Below are positions 10,000-45,535 of a stretch of 64,000 nucleotides of DNA, in pieces. Made by a program: the position numbers and the translations under genes. The stretch spans positions 3,308,001 to 3,372,000 of the forward strand of contig NZ_CP092968.1 of NCBI RefSeq assembly GCF_027571405.1, written 5' to 3'. The notes beneath the pieces were generated by a model. It worked only from the letters and a program-made list of their open reading frames with translations, made no database searches and was not told the DNA's origin. This stretch comes from Methylocystis parvus OBBP. Lineage in GTDB: Bacteria > Pseudomonadota > Alphaproteobacteria > Rhizobiales > Beijerinckiaceae. The first letter of the stretch is position 1. Each line of letters opens with the position of its first letter.

Positions 10000-10998
10000 T
10001 CAATCCCGAGCGCTCACGACGCCCCCGATCAAATTCTCAGCCAGCAATTTCTCGGTCGACGCCTCATGCGCGAGCGGCGTCAGCGCGGCCCCCGTCGCAA
10101 GCTTCTCCCGCAGCGCCGCCCGCGCCGCGACGGCTTCCTCCCAATCGACCGCCCGAAAACGAAGGCGCTCTCCAGCCCGTAATTGCGCGAGTCGGCCGAG
10201 ATCCGCGCCGATCGTCGTGGCGATCTTCGGATAGCCGCCCGTGGGCTGGCGATCGGCCATCAGCACGAAGGGCAGGCCCGAGCCCGGAACCTGAATCGCG
10301 CCCATCGCCGCGCCGTCGGAGACGATGTCGTGACCGCGCGCATGCGTCAGGCGGGAGCCTTCCAGCGCATAGGCCATGCGGTCGCTGCGCGGGCCCACGC
10401 GCCATTCGGCGGAGAGGAAGGCGGCGATCGCCTCGGGCGAGAAATAATCGTCCTGCGGGCCGAGCATGACGCGGATCGGCGCATTGCCGGGCCGGAGCCA
10501 GGGCGCTTCGATCGAATAGACGCCATGCGGCGCGGGGCGGGCGGCGGAGAGCGGCAGCTCGGCGCCGGCCGCCAATGGCTTCGGTCCGATCCCGGAGCGG
10601 GCATGGGTCGCGAGCGAACCGAGCGCTCGCGGAAGGTTGAGACGGGCGCCGATGGCGACATAGCACCAGGCGCCGGAAACGCCGGCGCGGATCGTCAGAC
10701 GGGCGCCTGGGCGAAGCGCGAAGACGCAGGCCGGCGGCAGGACGACGCCGTCGAGGCGAAGGTCGAAGGCGCCGCCCGCGACGGCCATCGGCAGCGCCGC
10801 CTCCGCCGCTTCGACCGTGACGCCGCCGAGCGAGACTTCTATCGCCCAATCGGCCTCGCCGGCCTGCGTCGCCGTGACGAAGGCGGCTTGGTCCATCGGT
10901 CCGGCCGGCGTGACGCCGAAGCGCGAATGACCGAAACGCCCCGCATCCTGAATGGTGACGCCGGGCCCCGCCGCGCGGATGAGCAGCCGCGCACTCAT
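10000..10998 (-). CDS. pxpC: 5-oxoprolinase subunit C (biotin-dependent carboxyltransferase family)
   Basis: PxpC works with PxpA and PxpB in ATP-dependent opening of 5-oxoproline (pyroglutamate) to glutamate. The 332-residue protein starts MSARLLIRAAGPGVTIQDAGR, the standard KipA/PxpC opening, and contains the conserved FGVTPAGPMDQ, VMLGPQDDYF, SDRMAYALEG and SDGAAMGAIQVPGSGLPFVLMADRQPTGGYPKIA segments. The ATG at 10998 overlaps the pxpB stop by four bases, so the subunits are coupled. The reading frame is open upstream as an artefact inside pxpB. Confidence 0.93.
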   Translation of the reverse strand: MSARLLIRAAGPGVTIQDAGRFGHSRFGVTPAGPMDQAAFVTATQAGEADWAIEVSLGGVTVEAAEAALPMAVAGGAFDLRLDGVVLPPACVFALRPGARLTIRAGVSGAWCYVAIGARLNLPRALGSLATHARSGIGPKPLAAGAELPLSAARPAPHGVYSIEAPWLRPGNAPIRVMLGPQDDYFSPEAIAAFLSAEWRVGPRSDRMAYALEGSRLTHARGHDIVSDGAAMGAIQVPGSGLPFVLMADRQPTGGYPKIATTIGADLGRLAQLRAGERLRFRAVDWEEAVAARAALREKLATGAALTPLAHEASTEKLLAENLIGGVVSARD

Positions 10999-11771
10999 AG
11001 GGGCGCCTCCCGCCGCGCGACGATCTCGCCTTGCGCCGCGCGCGCGTCGAGCGAGGCGAAGGTCGCGGCGTCGATGGGCTCGAAGCGCAGGGCGTCGCCG
11101 GGCGCGATGAGGAAGGGCGGGTCGCGCTCCAGCGAAAAGAGTCGCTCCGGCGTGCGTCCGACGACATACCAGCCTGTCGGCATGGGATTGGTCGCGATAA
11201 GCGACAGTCCGCCGCCGATCAGCACGGCGCCTTCCGGCGTCGGCCCGCGCGGCGCAAGACGGCGGGGAATGGCGAGCGACTCGGGAAGTCCGCCGAGATA
11301 GCACCAGCCGGGCGCGAAGCCATACATATAGGCGCGGTATTCAGCGCCGGCGTGCGTCTTCGAGAGCGCTCGTGCGCTGAGGCCGAGGAGCGACGCGGCT
11401 TCCGCGATGTCCTCGGCGACGGCGGGGTCGTAGCAGCAGGGGATGATCCATCCGCCGCCGTCATTGCGAGGAGCGCCCGCGACGAAGCAATCCAGCGCCG
11501 CGGCGTCGCTTCTGGATTGCTTCGCTTCGCTCGCAATGACGGATTCAACCCATTCCGCCAGCGCCGCCCGCGAAATCTCCAGCGGTTCGTAATGTATAAG
11601 CAGTGAGCGATAGGTCGGCGTCGTTTCCGTCACGCCCGGCGGCGTCTCGCGACGCAAAGCTGCGTCGAGCGCCAGCACGCGCGCATTGACCTTGGCGTCG
11701 ACCGCGTCGCCGAACTCCACCGTCAGCGCCGCTTCGCCCTGGTCGAGAAAACGCGGGCGGTCGTAACGCAT
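10995..11771 (-). CDS. pxpB: 5-oxoprolinase subunit B with an in-frame repeat insertion
   Basis: The 258-residue protein matches PxpB/KipI: N-terminal FLDQGEAALTVEFGD, then the cyclophilin-like C-terminal domain with IPCCYDPAVAEDI, YRAYMYGFAPGWCYLGGLP, and GWYVVGRTPERLF. Between these parts, at about residues 77-104, lies a segment (VIASEAKQSRSDAAALDC and onwards) that is the translation of the palindromic repeat at 11460-11540. The insertion is 81 bases, so the frame is kept. It falls in the linker just before the IPCCYD strand, where family members vary, so the protein may still fold. Start ATG at 11771. It is coupled to pxpC. Confidence 0.92.
   Translation of the reverse strand: MRYDRPRFLDQGEAALTVEFGDAVDAKVNARVLALDAALRRETPPGVTETTPTYRSLLIHYEPLEISRAALAEWVESVIASEAKQSRSDAAALDCFVAGAPRNDGGGWIIPCCYDPAVAEDIAEAASLLGLSARALSKTHAGAEYRAYMYGFAPGWCYLGGLPESLAIPRRLAPRGPTPEGAVLIGGGLSLIATNPMPTGWYVVGRTPERLFSLERDPPFLIAPGDALRFEPIDAATFASLDARAAQGEIVARREAPL
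11460..11540. repeat. Palindromic repeat, copy 1, inside pxpB
   Basis: An 81-base imperfect palindrome starts GTCATTGCGAGGAGC and ends GCTTCGCTCGCAATGAC. Copies of the same element lie at 14488-14567 and 43314-43393. Here it is within the pxpB reading frame. The ends are mutually inverted over at least 14 bases. Confidence 0.92.
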
Positions 11772-11803
11772 CTAGCGAGCCGCTTCAGTTAAAGCGAGGA
11801 CGA

Positions 11804-11891
11804 CCCCCTCCCTCACCCTCCCCCTTCCAGGGGGAGGGAATTGGCGCCGCTTTGCTCCCTCCCCCTGGAAGGGGGAGGGTCGGGGTGGGGG
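11804..11891. repeat. Long inverted repeat between pxpB and pxpA
   Basis: Two 35-base arms (11804-11838 and 11857-11891) are inverted copies of each other, built from CCCTCCCCCTTCCAGGGGGAGGG-type blocks. Each arm is itself palindromic. It belongs to a common G-rich intergenic repeat type in Alphaproteobacteria. It could separate pxpA transcription from pxpB-pxpC. Confidence 0.85.
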
Positions 11892-11922
11892 TCCAAAAAC
11901 CTGGCGATCTGATCGAAGCAAG

Positions 11923-12699
11923 CTACCGGCCCTCGATAAAAGCGCGCAGCGAGAAGCCCTGCGCTTCGAGTCCTGCGCGCAGGCGCCGCGCCATCTCGAC
12001 GGCGTGCGCCGTGTCGCCATGCACGCAGATGGAGTCGATCGGCGTCTTCAAGCGCTTGCCCGTTATGGTGATCAGCGCGCGTTCCGCAAGCATGTCGTTA
12101 ACGCGCGCAAGCGCCGCGTCGCCATCCGTGATCACCGCGCCCGCCTCCCCGCGCGGCTGCAAGCCGCCGTCATCGACATAGGCGCGGTCGGCGAAGATTT
12201 CATGCGCGACGTTCAGCCCGGCGCCTTCACCGGCGTGGACCTGCTCGGAAAGCGCGATGGCGAGGAGCGTGAGCGAGGCGTCGACCGCGCGGGTCGCGCG
12301 CGCCAGCGCATCGGCGACGCCGGCGTCCCTTTCGGCGATATTGGCGAGCGCGCCATGCGCCTTCACATAACGGATTCGATGGCCGCTCAGCGCCGCAAGC
12401 GCCTGCGCCGCGCCGATCTGATAGGCGACGGCGTTTTCGATCTCTGCCTTCGTCATCGCCATGGGCCGGCGCCCGAATCCCGCGAGATCGGGAAAGCCGA
12501 CATGGGCGCCGACCGCGACGCCGTTCTCGCGGGCGAGCGCGAAAGTCTTCGCCATGATGTCCGGGTCGCCCGCGTGAAAGCCGCAGGCGACATTGGCGCT
12601 CGTCACCACCTGGAGCATGGCGTCGTCGTCGCCCATGCGCCACGGGCCGAAGCCCTCGCCGAGATCGGCGTTGAGATCGATGACTCTGTTTCGTTCCAT
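11923..12699 (-). CDS. pxpA: 5-oxoprolinase subunit A (LamB/YcsF family)
   Basis: PxpA is the 5-oxoprolinase subunit of the LamB/YcsF fold. The 258-residue protein opens IDLNADLGEGFGPW and contains TSANVACGFHAGDPDIM, GVAVGAHVGFPDLAGFGRR, the YVKAHGALAN loop and DSICVHGDTAHAVEMAR, all hallmark segments. It lies upstream of pxpB-pxpC on the same strand but is separated by about 150 bases carrying an inverted repeat, so it may have its own transcript. It is divergent from the radical SAM gene. Confidence 0.95.
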   Translation of the reverse strand: MERNRVIDLNADLGEGFGPWRMGDDDAMLQVVTSANVACGFHAGDPDIMAKTFALARENGVAVGAHVGFPDLAGFGRRPMAMTKAEIENAVAYQIGAAQALAALSGHRIRYVKAHGALANIAERDAGVADALARATRAVDASLTLLAIALSEQVHAGEGAGLNVAHEIFADRAYVDDGGLQPRGEAGAVITDGDAALARVNDMLAERALITITGKRLKTPIDSICVHGDTAHAVEMARRLRAGLEAQGFSLRAFIEGR

Positions 12700-12816: not shown

Positions 12817-14439
12817 ATGCTCGACGAGGCGGTTACGCAATGCGATCCAGCGTCTGCCGCGCCGCCGCCCGCCGCAGCGGAATTGGGCCGTCCGCCGGGG
12901 AGGCGCATTCTTTGCGTCTTCCCGCTTTATGAGCCCTCGCTCGGCTCGCTCGAATACGCCTATGACATTACCGGGACGCTGCGCGCCTTCATGCCGCCGC
13001 AGGGGCTGCTCGTCATCGCCGCGGCCTTGCCGGAAGGATGGGAGGTGCGCTTCGTCGACGAGAATGTCGCGCGGGCGAAGCGCGGCGACTTCAAATGGGC
13101 GGACGCCGTTTTCGTCTCCGGCATGCATGTCCAGCGCCGCCAGATCGACGACATCCGCCGCCGTGCGCATAAATACGGCAAGGTCGCGATTCTCGGCGGT
13201 CCGTCGGTCTCCGCCTGTCCGGAGTTCTATCCGCATTTCGACTATCTCCATGTCGGGGAGATGGGCGACGCCACGCGCGCGCTCTTCGCGCGCCTCGCCC
13301 GCGATTGCGCGCGGCCGGAACGGCAGATCGTCCTCGAGACCGGCGAGCGCACGCCGCTCGAGGATTTTCCGATTCCCGCTTATGAGCTGGTGAGCTTCGA
13401 TCATTATTTCATCGGCTCCATCCAGTTTTCGAGCGGCTGCCCCTATCGCTGCGAATTTTGCGACATACCCGGCCTCTATGGCCGCGTGCCGCGGCTGAAG
13501 CCGCCACAGCGCATCCTCGCGGAGCTCGACAAGCTGCGCGCCTGCGGGCTGACGACCTCGGTCTATTTCGTCGACGACAATCTCATCGCCAACCGCCGCG
13601 CCCTGCGGGAGCTTCTGCCGGTGCTGATCGCGTGGCAGGAGACGAATTCCTTCCCGCTCTCCTTCGCCTTCGAGGCGACGCTCAACATCGCGAAATATGA
13701 CGATCTGCTCGAGGGGCTTCGCGCCGCCTGTTTCACGACGATCTTCGTCGGGATCGAAACGCCGGAGGAGGAGGCGCTCTCCGCCATCGACAAGGAGCAG
13801 AATCTGGCGCTGCCGATTCTCGAGGGCGTGCGCCGGCTCAACGCGCATGGCATGGAGGTCGTCGCCGGCGTCATCATCGGGCTCGACACCGACGGTCCGG
13901 ACACCGCGCGCCGCATCATCGACTTTGTCGATCAGTCGTATATCCCCATGCTGACGATCAATCTTCTGCAGGCGCTGCCGAAGACGCCGCTTTGGGAGCG
14001 CCTGGAGAAAGAAGGGCGGCTCAGCGACGAGGCGGGTCGCGAATCCAACGTCGTCTTCAAGCGCTCCTACGAGGAGACCGTCGAAACCTGGCGCGACTGC
14101 CTGCGCCACGCCTACGATCCCGCGCGGCTCTTCGCGCGCTATGAAATCCTCACGCAGCACACTTTCCCCAATCGCCGGCCGCGCCCGCGTCCGCCGGATC
14201 AGGTGACGCCGAAGAATGTGCGCCGGGGAATGGCCATGCTGCTCAGGATCTGCTGGAAGCTCGGCGTCGTCGCCGATTACCGCAGGATCTTCTGGGCCTA
14301 TGCCTGGCCGCGCATCAAGACCGGCCGCATCGAGGACGTCATCAGCGTCGGCATCCTCGCCAAGCATCTCATCACTTATGCGCGAAAAGCCTGCGCCGGA
14401 AAGCTCAACGCCTCGAACTATTCGGCTCGCCTGAGGTGA
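12817..14439 (+). CDS. Cobalamin-binding radical SAM enzyme (DUF4070 type; HpnP-like possible)
   Basis: The 540-residue protein has an N-terminal B12-binding-like domain (about 30-155, RRILCVFPLYEPSLG to HVGEMGD). The radical SAM core carries CPYRCEFCD, with cysteines 208, 212 and 215 binding the 4Fe-4S cluster, and a C-terminal DUF4070 region follows. This architecture includes the hopanoid C2-methylase HpnP as well as other methyltransferases. I cannot separate them by eye, and no hopanoid genes lie nearby. The ATG at 12817 (GAGAAAG upstream) is preferred to an in-frame TTG at 12763. It is divergent from pxpA. Confidence 0.8.
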   Translation: MLDEAVTQCDPASAAPPPAAAELGRPPGRRILCVFPLYEPSLGSLEYAYDITGTLRAFMPPQGLLVIAAALPEGWEVRFVDENVARAKRGDFKWADAVFVSGMHVQRRQIDDIRRRAHKYGKVAILGGPSVSACPEFYPHFDYLHVGEMGDATRALFARLARDCARPERQIVLETGERTPLEDFPIPAYELVSFDHYFIGSIQFSSGCPYRCEFCDIPGLYGRVPRLKPPQRILAELDKLRACGLTTSVYFVDDNLIANRRALRELLPVLIAWQETNSFPLSFAFEATLNIAKYDDLLEGLRAACFTTIFVGIETPEEEALSAIDKEQNLALPILEGVRRLNAHGMEVVAGVIIGLDTDGPDTARRIIDFVDQSYIPMLTINLLQALPKTPLWERLEKEGRLSDEAGRESNVVFKRSYEETVETWRDCLRHAYDPARLFARYEILTQHTFPNRRPRPRPPDQVTPKNVRRGMAMLLRICWKLGVVADYRRIFWAYAWPRIKTGRIEDVISVGILAKHLITYARKACAGKLNASNYSARLR

Positions 14440-14487: not shown

Positions 14488-14567
14488 GTCATTGCGAGGA
14501 GCGAAGCGACGAAGCAATCTAGAGCCACGTTGACGCTCCTGGATTGCTTCGCTTCGCTCGCAATGAC
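14488..14567. repeat. Palindromic repeat, copy 2
   Basis: An 80-base near palindrome (GTCATTGCGAGGAGCGAAGC to GCTTCGCTTCGCTCGCAATGAC) in the gap between the convergent radical SAM and leuB genes. It is the best-preserved of the three copies in this window. Confidence 0.92.
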
Positions 14568-14608
14568 GGCGGCGCAGCGGAAGGATCGAGCGCGATGGGC
14601 GAGGCGGC

Positions 14609-16862: not shown

Positions 16863-17353
16863 CCGCTCTTCTCCTCGACACCCACGCCTGGGTCTGGAGC
16901 CTGACCGACGATCCCCGTTTGTCTGCGAGAGCGAGAGAGGCCGTCGCCGGTGCGGGCGGAGTCAATGTCAGCCCGATCAGTTTTTTTGAAATCTCTCAAA
17001 AGGCGCGGCTCGGGAAATGGCCGGAGATGGCGCCTTATGTCGATGCGCTTCCCAAGCTCCTTGTGGAACAGGGCGGCTTGGCGGCGCGTCTCAATCCTGC
17101 AATTTGCACGCTTGCCGGCAGCCTGACATGGGCGCATCGCGACCCATTCGATCGTTTGATCGCAGCGACCTCGATTTTGGAAGGGCTTTCCCTCGTCTCC
17201 GTCGACGCGGCGTTCGACGGCGTTGCGCCACGCATCTGGTCGTCGGGGCCGGTCGATCGCCCCTTCCTTGCGCTGCTCGCATGGTGTAGAAGCCGGCGAT
17301 GGTTTTGGCGTCGAGCCCGGCCGCGCCGGCGCTCCGCTCGGGAAGAAGGCTAG
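16859..17353 (+). CDS. PIN-domain toxin (VapC-like) with a C-terminal read-through extension
   Basis: VapC-like toxins are metal-dependent RNases. The four acidic residues are present: Asp7 in LLDTHAW, Glu44 in SFFEIS, Asp95/Asp98 in HRDPFDR and Asp116 in VSVDAAF. The fold ends at GVAPRIW (residue 127), where such proteins usually stop. Here the frame continues for 37 basic, tryptophan-rich residues up to three bases before secG. This tail reads the sequence that should be the secG leader, so a native stop may have been lost. The GTG start overlaps the antitoxin stop. Confidence 0.85.
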   Translation: MTALLLDTHAWVWSLTDDPRLSARAREAVAGAGGVNVSPISFFEISQKARLGKWPEMAPYVDALPKLLVEQGGLAARLNPAICTLAGSLTWAHRDPFDRLIAATSILEGLSLVSVDAAFDGVAPRIWSSGPVDRPFLALLAWCRSRRWFWRRARPRRRSAREEG

Positions 17354-17355
17354 AA

Positions 17356-18099
17356 ATGCTGCAGCAGATCATCATCGCGATCCACCTGATGGTGGTGACC
17401 GCGCTCGTCATTCTCGTTCTTTATCAAAAGTCCGAGGGCGGCGCGCTCGGCATGGGCGGCAGCGGCGTCTTCACCGGCCGCGGCCAGGCCAATGCGCTCA
17501 CCCGCGCCACCGGCATTCTCGCGACCATCTTCTTCCTCACCAGCATCGCCCTCACCGTGCTCCCGGCCTGGGAGCGCCGCGCCGCCGGCGGCGACGACTG
17601 GACCAAGGCGATCGACCAGAACGACATCAAGCTCAAGGAGATCAAGCCGGGCGAGAAGGAGCCGGAGGCCGGCAAGGACACGGTTTTCGACCAGCTCCAG
17701 CGCGCCCAGCAAAAACGCCAGCAGGGCGTGACCGGCGCCTCTCCGGCGGAAGAGAAGCCGGCCCTGCGCCCGTCGCAGGAGCCGCCCAAGGCCGAGGCCG
17801 AAGCCCCCAAATCCGAGGCTCCCAAAACCGAGGCGCCGAAGTCTGAGGCTCCCAAGTTCGACGCTCCCAAATTGGACGCTCCGAAGGCCGAGGCGCCGAA
17901 ATCCGAACCTGCGATGGAAGCGCCCAAAGCCGAAGCCCCGAAGGCGGAAGCGCCCAAATTCGAGGCTCCCGCCGCAGAGGCTCCCAAGCTCGACGCCCAG
18001 AAGCCCGACGCCGTGAAGCCTGAGGCCGTCAAGCCGGCTGAGGCGCCGAAGGCCGCGCCGGCCGCCCCGCCGACGCAGTGGAAATCCCCCGCGCAATAA
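17356..18099 (+). CDS. secG: Preprotein translocase subunit SecG with a long repetitive tail
   Basis: SecG is the small accessory subunit of SecYEG. The first 75 residues are normal: helix IIIAIHLMVVTALVILVLY, the family loop SEGGALGMGGSGVFTGRG, and helix GILATIFFLTSIALTVL. About 170 residues follow, including some ten or more APK-type units (EAPKSEAPKTEAPKSEAPK and variants with F, L or D), so the total is 247 residues against about 75-130 in most bacteria. Alphaproteobacterial SecG often has such a tail, although this one is long. ATG at 17356 follows GAAGG. It abuts the toxin gene and precedes pyrG. Confidence 0.9.
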   Translation: MLQQIIIAIHLMVVTALVILVLYQKSEGGALGMGGSGVFTGRGQANALTRATGILATIFFLTSIALTVLPAWERRAAGGDDWTKAIDQNDIKLKEIKPGEKEPEAGKDTVFDQLQRAQQKRQQGVTGASPAEEKPALRPSQEPPKAEAEAPKSEAPKTEAPKSEAPKFDAPKLDAPKAEAPKSEPAMEAPKAEAPKAEAPKFEAPAAEAPKLDAQKPDAVKPEAVKPAEAPKAAPAAPPTQWKSPAQ

Positions 18100-42589: not shown

Positions 42590-43267
42590 GTGGACGTTAC
42601 GGTCCGGGCGCTCGACCTTGCGGGGATAACGGCCCCGCAATGGGAAGCGCTCGCCGCTTTGCTAGATGACGAGGAGCGCGCCCGTGCGGCGCGCTTCGCT
42701 TTTGAGGAAGACCGTCGATCCTACGTCGCCGCGCATGGGCTGTTGCGCCTGGAGCTTTCGCGCCGCGCCGCCCGCCCGCCGCAGGATTGGCGCTTCGCCG
42801 CGACGAAGCTCGGCAAACCCTACCTTCTCGATTGCGCGCGAGACCTGCGTTTCAGTCTCTCCCATACGCGCGGCATGGTCGCCGTCGCGGTCGCCGACGG
42901 CGCGGAGATCGGCGTCGACGTGGAGCCGTCCGACCGCCGCGCTGAAAGCATGAAACTCGCGCAACGTTTTTTCGCGCCGGAGGAAGTCGCGCTGCTCGCG
43001 GCCGTCGAGGGCGCGGCGCGGCGCGATATGTTTTTCGCGATCTGGACATTGAAAGAGGCCGTGGTGAAAACGACCGGACAGGGGCTCGCGCGCGCGCTCG
43101 ACAGTTTCGCGATCGCGCTCGATCCGCCGCGCGTGACGATGCTCGACGGCTCGGCGCAACAGTGGAGCGCGGCGCATTGGCGGCGCGGATCGTTTCATTT
43201 TGCGCTCGCCGCGCAAGGACCGGTTAGGGCTGATTTCAGCGAGGCGGAGCTCGCCTCATTGCTTTGA
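42590..43267 (+). CDS. 4'-phosphopantetheinyl transferase (Sfp type)
   Basis: A 225-residue enzyme that moves phosphopantetheine from coenzyme A onto a carrier protein serine. Motifs GVDVEPSD with the first metal residues and FFAIWTLKEAVVKTTGQGL with the second are plain. The N-terminal pseudo-dimer half has KLGKPYLLDCARDLRFSLSHTRGMVAVAV. GTG at 42590 is the only start that keeps the N-terminus and lies two bases after the reductase stop. The carrier-protein partner is not encoded here. Confidence 0.93.
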   Translation: MDVTVRALDLAGITAPQWEALAALLDDEERARAARFAFEEDRRSYVAAHGLLRLELSRRAARPPQDWRFAATKLGKPYLLDCARDLRFSLSHTRGMVAVAVADGAEIGVDVEPSDRRAESMKLAQRFFAPEEVALLAAVEGAARRDMFFAIWTLKEAVVKTTGQGLARALDSFAIALDPPRVTMLDGSAQQWSAAHWRRGSFHFALAAQGPVRADFSEAELASLL

Positions 43268-43313
43268 TCCCGATCCGTGCCAGAGTTGAGCGGCCTTTCG
43301 ATCGGCCGATTCC

Positions 43314-43393
43314 GTCATCGCGAGGAGCGGAGCGACAAAGCGATCCAGAGTTGTGATGACGCTTCTGGATTGCTTCGCTGCGCCCGCAATGAC
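43314..43393. repeat. Palindromic repeat, copy 3
   Basis: An 80-base diverged copy (GTCATCGCGAGGAGCGGAGC to GCTGCGCCCGCAATGAC) 32 bases before the Ntn-hydrolase start. In one frame it extends that reading frame upstream, but the proper start has its own ribosome binding site. Confidence 0.88.
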
Positions 43394-43424
43394 GGCGCCG
43401 CTTTTCTGTTTCAAGGATCATGCG

Positions 43425-44465
43425 ATGAAGAAGACCATTTGCAGCCTCGCCCTCAGCGCCGCCCTTTCCCTCTCGACGCTTCCCGCGGACGCCTGCACCC
43501 GCATCCTTTACGAGACGGGGACCAAGTCCTACATGGTCGGCCGCTCGATGGACTGGATGGTCGATCCCAATACCGACCTCTGGGCTTTCCCCAAGGGGAT
43601 GGCGCGCGATGGGGGCGTCCCGCAGGAGGCGATCAAATGGACCGCCAAGCACGGATCGGTGATCAGCTCCTTCTACAATCTCGCGACTGTCGACGGCATG
43701 AACGACGCCGGCCTCGTCGCCAATGTCCTTTATCTCGTCGAGGCGGACTATGGCGACGCGACGAAGTCGAAGAAGCCGAAGCTCTCCATCGGCGCCTGGG
43801 CGCAATATGCGCTCGACAATTTCGGCACGGTGGCCGAGGCGGTGACGGCCTTGCAGAAGGAGCCCTTCGTCCTGGTCGCGCCGGATCTTCCCGACGGCCA
43901 TAAAGCCGGCGCGCATCTCGCCATTGCGGACGCAACGGGCGACAGCGCCATTTTCGAATATCTGAACGGCAAGCTCGTCATCCACCACAGCCCGCAATAT
44001 AGGGTGATGACCAATTCGCCGAGCTATGACCAGCAGCTCGCCATCAACGCCTATTGGAATACGGTGGGCGGCCTGGAATTTCTGCCCGGCACGGCTCGCG
44101 CGTCCGATCGCTTCGCCCGCATCAGCTGGAATTTGAACGCGGCCGCCAAGGAGTCCGATCCGAGGCTCGCGACCGCCGCGACCTTCTCGCTGATCCGCGC
44201 CATCTCCGTGCCGCTGGGCATAACCGATCCCAAGGAGCCGAACATCGCCTCGACCGTCTGGCGCACCGTCTCGGACGTCGCGGCCAAACGCTATTATTTC
44301 GAGAGCGCGTACAATCCTGCGATCTTCTGGGTGGACCTCGAAAAGGTTTTGCCGGCGACGGGCGGCAAACCGATGAAGCTCGATCTGAGCGGACGGCCGA
44401 TGCTGTCGGACGAAGTATCGGAAAAGTTCGTGGCCGCGGAGCCTTTCAAGTTCATCTCTCACTAA
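43425..44465 (+). CDS. Exported linear amide C-N hydrolase (choloylglycine hydrolase family)
   Basis: A 346-residue Ntn-hydrolase. The signal peptide (residues 1-23, MKKTICSLALSAALSLSTLPADA) is cut directly before Cys24, which becomes the N-terminal nucleophile (CTRILYE), followed by VGRSMDWMVDPNTDLW. Family members hydrolyse bile-salt amides, penicillin V or acyl-homoserine lactones. In a free-living bacterium, acyl-homoserine lactone or acylamide substrates are plausible, but the sequence does not decide. ATG at 43425 has AAGGA upstream. The longer frame reads into the repeat. Convergent with the AraC gene. Confidence 0.9.
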   Translation: MKKTICSLALSAALSLSTLPADACTRILYETGTKSYMVGRSMDWMVDPNTDLWAFPKGMARDGGVPQEAIKWTAKHGSVISSFYNLATVDGMNDAGLVANVLYLVEADYGDATKSKKPKLSIGAWAQYALDNFGTVAEAVTALQKEPFVLVAPDLPDGHKAGAHLAIADATGDSAIFEYLNGKLVIHHSPQYRVMTNSPSYDQQLAINAYWNTVGGLEFLPGTARASDRFARISWNLNAAAKESDPRLATAATFSLIRAISVPLGITDPKEPNIASTVWRTVSDVAAKRYYFESAYNPAIFWVDLEKVLPATGGKPMKLDLSGRPMLSDEVSEKFVAAEPFKFISH

Positions 44466-44518
44466 GCGGTTCTTGGGGGGCTGGACGAGCCATCCACCCG
44501 GAGGGCGGAATTTGAACG

Positions 44519-45535
44519 TCATCCGCCGCGCTTGGCCAACTCCCGCCATCGACCGGGCGCCAGGCCGCTCCAGCTCTCGAACGCGCGGCTGAAATGCGCG
44601 AGGTCGCTATAGCCGAGCGTCAAGGCGATCTCGGTGATCGACAGATCGGGCTGACACAAAAGGTTTATGGCCCGTCTCTGCAGCGTGTTCTTCAGAAGGT
44701 CCGAAAAACTCAGTCCGAGTTCTCCGAGGCGGCGCTGGAGCGTCCGTTTCGACAGGCCGGTCCGGCTGACGATGCGGGAGAGGTCGGGACGACCGCCGAG
44801 TAATTCGAGATCGATCAGCACGCCGATATTGCCCGGCAAGTCGTCCGGAGCCGGTATGTCGAAGATGCGCGCGAGTTCGTCGGCGATCAGGCCTCGGTTC
44901 GCATTCAGATTCGGGTTGACCGCCATGAGCAGCCGCTTGTCGAAAACGATCGTCCCGGGACCGTCGCAAATCACCGTGTCGGCGCCCATTTGCTCGTCGA
45001 TCGAACGACGCGCCTTTGACGGCAGGCCGCCGACCATGACTCGGCTCGGCAGCCAGCGGGCGCCGGCGAAATGGCGGATCATGACGATCATGTACCAGAG
45101 CGCGAGCATCTCGTTCTGCGGCCGCCCTTCCGTGGCGGGGTCCGCCAGCTCATATGACCAGTGAACCTCGTCGCCATAGCGCCGTACGGCCAGCCGCGTC
45201 GCGCTCTGCATCATATGCGGCAGACTCGTTCCCGCGCGATGCATTGCTTCTAACAGGGTGGGAGCCTGCAAGACCCACTTGCCATAGACTCCGAGGCCCG
45301 CGATCGAGGTTTGGCGCCCGAGCCGCGCGGCGAAAGCCTCGTCTCGCAATTCGCGCGAGGCGGTCGCAAGAAGCCGGAAATGATCGCGTAACGGCAGAAG
45401 CGCGTCGGGCGAATCCAATAATTTAACGGGAAGATCGGCGCGGCGAAAAACCCGATCGATCGAGCCGCCATTCGCCGTGACGACGTCCGCGATCGGCCCG
45501 AGCGTGCTCGCGCGCGTATATCCGCTTCGTCGCAT
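44519..45535 (-). CDS. AraC-family transcription regulator (OruR/ArgR-like binding domain)
   Basis: A 338-residue regulator with an N-terminal Arabinose_bd-type sensory domain (about 20-200). The C-terminal double helix-turn-helix contains LSKRTLQRRLGELGLSF and ITEIALTLGYSDLAHFSRAFESWSGLAPGRWRE. It is divergent from the DUF3047 gene (139 bases between starts) and converges on the Ntn-hydrolase, so either neighbour may be a target. The ligand is unknown. ATG at 45535 carries no strong Shine-Dalgarno sequence. Confidence 0.9.
   Translation of the reverse strand: MRRSGYTRASTLGPIADVVTANGGSIDRVFRRADLPVKLLDSPDALLPLRDHFRLLATASRELRDEAFAARLGRQTSIAGLGVYGKWVLQAPTLLEAMHRAGTSLPHMMQSATRLAVRRYGDEVHWSYELADPATEGRPQNEMLALWYMIVMIRHFAGARWLPSRVMVGGLPSKARRSIDEQMGADTVICDGPGTIVFDKRLLMAVNPNLNANRGLIADELARIFDIPAPDDLPGNIGVLIDLELLGGRPDLSRIVSRTGLSKRTLQRRLGELGLSFSDLLKNTLQRRAINLLCQPDLSITEIALTLGYSDLAHFSRAFESWSGLAPGRWRELAKRGG

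Follow-up and report, generated by a model that had tools for sequence, protein, structure and literature searches.

Positions 11460-11540 of the 64,000-nucleotide (nt) stretch of Methylocystis parvus OBBP DNA analysed here (the window) appear to be a copy of a dispersed palindromic repeat that was inserted, with the frame kept, into the interdomain linker of PxpB, subunit B of 5-oxoprolinase; comparison with relatives supports this reading. The repeat is a head-to-head dimer of repetitive extragenic palindromic (REP) units, with a long and a short arm. Judged from sequence comparisons, the order of these arms switches at fixed sites in two genes, pxpB and queA, while the frame is kept, and the PxpB linker is a repeated acceptor of REP inserts, and of inserts from two repeat families. 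Taken as a whole, these observations are probably explained by insertion of the repeat, its translation as a tolerated linker, and conversion of its arms in place. The genome, designated G000, has three contigs, and the window is part of the one of 4.08 Mb; codes beginning with G, L and P denote genomes, loci and proteins.

The insert and its repeat family

The insert lies between the two halves of PxpB, as had been proposed in an earlier, sequence-only reading of the window: the structure 2kwa aligns to residues 10-75 (N-terminal domain) and 2zp2 from residue 110 onwards (C-terminal domain). The same reading held that an 81-base repeat is read through in frame, which proved exact to the base, and that it adds 27 residues. 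The repeat does contribute 27 codons, yet PxpB exceeds the median of the 98 listed PxpB proteins in which no repeat was recognised (244 residues; 84 of the 98 fall within 237-247) by only about 14 residues. Thus, part of the old linker is gone.

As expected of an insertion, most relatives lack it. The element or a remnant of it is present in 6 of 36 Methylocystis pxpB loci, namely those of G000, G002, G030, G061, G010 and G022 (one arm left); the element of G061 has a 21-nt in-frame deletion. Alignment scores were obtained for 11 of the 36 loci, the others being assessed from the length and sequence of their aligned linkers; G035 holds another pxpB copy, which lies outside this set. The linkers of repeat-free relatives are mostly shorter and unrelated in sequence, so that the homologous segment of equal length that the sequence-only reading named as grounds for abandoning the idea was not found. 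In one insert-free locus, L019 (same length class as M. heyeri P0084), the linker is of similar length and unrelated sequence.

The 81-nt near-palindrome folds to a hairpin of -48.9 kcal/mol, equalled by 1 of 200 dinucleotide shuffles (z = -4.95). Its family occupies at least 40 places in G000, a count based on scores for 40 of 159 candidates; counts for other genomes are likewise lower bounds where candidates outnumber those scored. Most of the 40 aligned G000 copies carry CGTC...GACG at their ends. Two opposed arms with the tags outside, that is, a head-to-head dimer, were found at 126 of 130 loci from six genomes, and these 126 parsed loci mostly measure 79, 80 or 81 nt from GTC to GAC (36, 51 and 27 loci, respectively), although the parsing pattern mis-split some arms (e.g., L164, L041, L169). 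The arms carry ATTGC...GCAAT followed by CCA, and thus an AT at the start of the stem and an unpaired CCA tail. Taken alone, each arm has by eye a stem of 5 bp (ATTGC/GCAAT), as against the 8-9 bp stem and 4-5 nt loop of CGTC-tagged REP units.

Features of the pxp region and copies of the repeat within the window
Feature	Positions	Strand	Basis
REP dimer, in frame as PxpB residues 78-104 (VIASEAKQSRSDAAALDCFVAGAPRND), 81 nt, GTC...GAC	11460..11540	-	sequence, genome copies, alignment scores
Short arm, 29 nt, first on the coding strand	11512..11540	-	sequence; arm classes measured
Spacer, 16 nt, variable among copies and species	11496..11511	-	copy alignment
Long arm, 36 nt, second on the coding strand	11460..11495	-	sequence; arm classes measured
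Second copy of the pxpB repeat, between open reading frames ending at 14439 and 14609	14488..14569	-	
Third copy of the pxpB repeat, amid overlapping open reading frames 43236-44549 (-) and 43353-44465 (+)	43312..43395	-	
pxpB, 5-oxoprolinase subunit B (CT_C_D), 258 residues, host of the insert	10995..11771	-	Pfam
pxpC, 4-base overlap (ATGA) with the end of pxpB	10000..10998	-	Pfam
pxpA, 5-oxoprolinase subunit A	11923..12699	-	Pfam

The repeat is dispersed and mainly intergenic. Within the window it recurs between genes, as the sequence-only reading had stated (second copy in the table), and the copies in pxpB and queA are the only ones found inside Pfam-supported frames, in tests that covered the copies unevenly. 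The GC-pattern filter for coding copies was applied to 120 loci (30 of the 40 G000 copies and 90 copies of five other genomes). L189, a third candidate for an intragenic copy, gave no Pfam match, and in five of the ten frames tested (L040, L041, L049, L052, L128) a Pfam domain lies on one side of the element only, so that they were not counted as intragenic. In G033, another Methylocystis genome (contig C7, about 17124-18079 and 608336-608755), equal-scoring copies are closely and regularly spaced at 110 to 326 bases, in contrast to the mostly dispersed copies listed in other genomes.

Arm order at fixed sites

In a three-gene tree, G022 (long arm first) is the earliest of the six insert-bearing genomes to branch off, followed by G000 (short first), G010 (long first) and then by G002, G030 and G061 (short first). 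The group of all six has a support of 62, that of the five other than G022 one of 90, and the inner nodes reach 100. The PxpB protein tree likewise contains three sister pairs with opposite arm order, each with a support of 100. In its main clade (16 tips, support 83) arm order requires 6 changes, against a shuffle mean of 6.27; thus, it has no inertia.

A second in-frame copy is found in queA, outside the window (L045/L228, contig C1 of G000, about 706290-706372). It occurs in G000, G002, G022, G030 and G061, where its offset is identical and it spans 81 nt from CGTC to GAC, and is absent from 7 of the 12 genomes searched. The long arm comes first only in G000. The copies of G000 and G022 have both junctions and the spacer in common but opposite arm order: compared directly, their spacers score 9.0, a value reached by none of 122 pool spacers, whereas the inverted comparison scores 3.0, reached by 79 percent. 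Among the listed QueA proteins (best 120 of 4689 matches), P0123 has two short arms and P0125 perhaps two long ones, as judged by eye from the protein.

At shared sites outside pxpB, which are probably mostly intergenic, only sites with both flanks aligned were counted, one-side-only matches being left out. The closely related G061 and G002 keep arm order at 10 of 10 such sites. Of 15 distant comparisons 10 keep the order, 4 reverse it (representing 3 distinct G000 or G002 copies) and 1 is uninformative, as one copy has two short arms. Copy L127 also has a short-short structure.

The PxpB list comprised the best 120 of 1270 matches; both protein lists favour insert-bearing relatives, because the PxpB and QueA queries themselves carry the insert. 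REP-like linkers occur in 18 of the 120 PxpB proteins, on several branches. Of 116 linkers that could be parsed (P0018, P0049, P0067 and P0102 could not), 17 are REP-encoded (short arm first in 9, long arm first in 8); P0018 is long-first by eye. On the protein tree, presence of the REP requires 8 changes. Four further linkers of the 120 (P0019, P0106, P0113, P0116) hold peptides of an unrelated, GC-rich repeat. Scored against the repeat at 11802-11893, P0019 reaches a z of 8.3 and P0113 one of 5.0; P0106 (z = 1.9) and P0116 (z = 1.4) were assigned by eye, P0106 also through its sister P0113. P0050, P0072 and P0115 (z = 3.0-3.2) were rejected as repeats.

The repeat at 11802-11893, between pxpA and pxpB, is a 92-nt GC-rich, near-perfect palindrome with 38-nt arms. 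Among 33 pxp loci compared it was seen only in G000, and peptides from a similar repeat are present in the PxpB linker of other lineages. A search against Rfam gave 20 matches, every one under the gathering score, mostly to microRNA families on this hairpin.

We suggest the following history. A head-to-head, CGTC-tagged REP dimer would have entered the PxpB linker in the ancestor of a Methylocystis subclade, replacing roughly a dozen of the old linker codons. An insert of 81 nt in phase 0 is usually open with either arm leading: 24 of 28 copies are open in both directions in this class and 42 of 54 at phase 1 and 80 nt, the two classes occurring in pxpB and queA. The insert would therefore be translated and PxpB would keep working. 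Conversion from the partner arm or from copies elsewhere in the genome would then go on rewriting the arms, and the spacer would drift; arm order, and hence the peptide, would come to differ between related species with the frame intact. Conversion of single arms is the simplest account of the shared spacer, the swapped arms, the slow change of the arms and the homodimers. Since the spacer kept its direction in the only informative pair, single conversion of the arms is more probable than inversion of the element. The long arm of the pxpB subtype exceeds the short one by 6 nt (inner lengths 16 and 10), a difference with which a single conversion would leave the frame intact. More tentatively, REP dimers in genes might act in general as self-editing linkers, with arms continually converted, the peptide rewritten at a fixed site, and length classes that keep the frame.

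Several observations weigh against this history. The left junction of L001, L004 and L008 differs from that of L002 and L003 by three codons, which suits separate insertions. P0013 and P0016 have no REP although they fall inside the main insert clade, so that losses or separate gains must be assumed. Besides the low three-gene support for grouping G022 with the other five insert genomes, a tree of pxpB only unites those five with a support of 69 and places G022 outside them. In queA, G010 has no insert although its close kin have one, and the spacer of G000 scores higher in the inverted comparison with G030 (8.0) and G002 (11.0), values that stay within chance, as 34 and 15 percent of the pool reach them, respectively. 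Finally, one of six spacer comparisons was informative, the three in pxpB being uninformative, and the spacers were delimited by hand.

Some of these points could also be accommodated if the PxpB linker were a landing site, in which REPs insert afresh in each lineage and in either direction without any rewriting in place. REP-like linkers are indeed found on several branches with different junctions (P0014/P0017, P0020, P0025, P0026, and also P0018), and the second repeat family has reached the same linker. The arms look young, differing between L001 and L003 at 1 of 14.3 synonymous sites (proportion of synonymous differences, pS, 0.07), as against 48 percent (0.48) in the flanks. The chance-like distribution of arm order on the tree and the weak grouping of G022 would follow as well. 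We nevertheless regard this explanation as rather doubtful, because P0004 and P0009 have opposite arm orders but the short right junction NDGEW in common, and because the queA copies of G000 and G022 agree in junctions and spacer. Repeated removal of the same stretch to the same end base would be unlikely unless targeting were very precise.

Inversion of the whole element in place, as a small intragenic inverton with two alternative peptides, would account for opposite arm order in sister lineages, for the high proportion of copies open in both directions, and for reversal at 4 of the 15 distant sites when all close ones are kept. It is unlikely, however, given that the sole informative spacer pair is not inverted and that inversion cannot yield short-short (P0123, L127) or long-long (perhaps P0125) dimers. 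As a general mechanism it has no backing from the spacers at shared sites outside pxpB or from those in pxpB, which gave no usable signal. No invertase could be tied to the element either. IS110 recombinases are found in 5 of the 6 genomes searched (27 loci), and REP traces near IS110-type genes are weak or distant: in G010 (L244) a full copy lies about 1 kb from an IS110 gene, in G000 (L241) a 22-nt match (E = 0.064) precedes an IS110 gene match by about 100 nt, and other loci hold weaker pieces. All six IS110-type matches of G000 are on the two smaller contigs (C2, C3), while the 40 listed REP places are on C1, and a link between IS110 and the element is possible but unproved. REP-associated tyrosine transposases (RAYT; IS200-type, PF01797) gave no match in G000.

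State of the protein and its peptide

The sequence-only reading had left two outcomes, a tolerated peptide or a damaged protein. PxpB looks undamaged, because, in three pairs of insert-bearing species, the flanks of the insert have a ratio of nonsynonymous to synonymous substitution (dN/dS) of about 0.14, and because only residues 90-103 are poorly predicted in a model that otherwise keeps the fold. Of the two outcomes, tolerance is therefore favoured.

The insert appears to behave as DNA, and shows no sign of a selected peptide. Recruitment of the repeat-encoded peptide for a function, such as regulation of PxpB, could be argued from its in-frame retention in several species and from the other copy in queA. 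This is very unlikely, since the six spacer codons change freely between L001 and L003, whereas even the synonymous sites of the arms are conserved, as processes at the DNA level predict; moreover, the site accommodates two different peptides as well as an unrelated repeat, in a region that is poorly predicted in the model. Decay of a damaged pxpB is the least probable alternative of all: amino acids of the insert do change three times faster than the rest of the gene between L002 and L003 (dN 0.107 and 0.035, respectively), but the flanks are constrained, no stop occurs within the pxpB matches of the six insert genomes, the frames are open, the predicted fold is retained, and pxpC overlaps the end of pxpB.

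In PxpB, CT_C_D (PF02682) matches residues 7-221 with 198.7 bits, and PF02626 and PF03746 are found in the neighbouring genes, which is the arrangement of a PxpB (KipI family) protein in a pxpABC cluster. TIGR00370 scores 113.1 on PxpB, below its cut-off of 145.55.

Known systems and significance

Intragenic invertons, reportedly described by Chanin in 2024, resemble the insert in having inverted repeats within a gene and in being open in both directions. They differ in that the one informative spacer pair was not inverted here, and in that the opposite arm orders seen here are those of different species.

The insert can be regarded as a case of the CGTC-tagged REPs that Di Nocera, De Gregorio and Rocco (2013, PMC3733652) described, stem length as read by eye being the one feature that did not fit. 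As described in the main text of that paper, these REPs predominate in alphaproteobacteria, form head-to-head dimers, have no dedicated transposase, and are mostly intergenic, with some copies in frame encoding 20-30 residues; outer CGTC tags, dimer structure, location and freedom from a transposase are all shared by the Methylocystis element. Arm-order switching at one site and two repeat families in one linker are not part of that description, although different REPs at about the same site are reported for recB of Xanthomonas campestris and X. oryzae (PMC3733652). The main text contains none of the words methyl-, 5-oxoprolin- and allophanate; target genes are listed in additional files. The comparison with Rickettsia palindromic elements (RPE) made in the sequence-only reading is apt: RPE-4 and RPE-6 are palindromes read in frame inside likely functional proteins, and the palindromic elements of R. 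conorii also end in CGTC (both from PMC3733652). The likeness is one of description, and the host here is a free-living methanotroph. No report of REPs in PxpB, of one linker used by two repeat families or of arm swapping at one site was found in the literature searched, which left most subscription papers outside its scope. Thus, what appears to be new is the repeated entry of two repeat families into one linker, and the exchange of arms at fixed coding sites in two genes.

Protein-coding palindromes evidently persist from species to species in two enzymes of a free-living bacterium, and insert-free, short-long, long-short and truncated forms together make up a natural series. With this series, the spread of CGTC-tagged REPs without a transposase and the concerted evolution of their arms become testable. 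The findings also call for caution, as linkers of annotated proteins can be derived from repeats. If the proposal of self-editing linkers were true, one bacterial genus would turn over part of several enzymes through concerted evolution at the DNA level. Small repeats may, in this way, keep rewriting a stretch of a working protein in a methane-eating bacterium.
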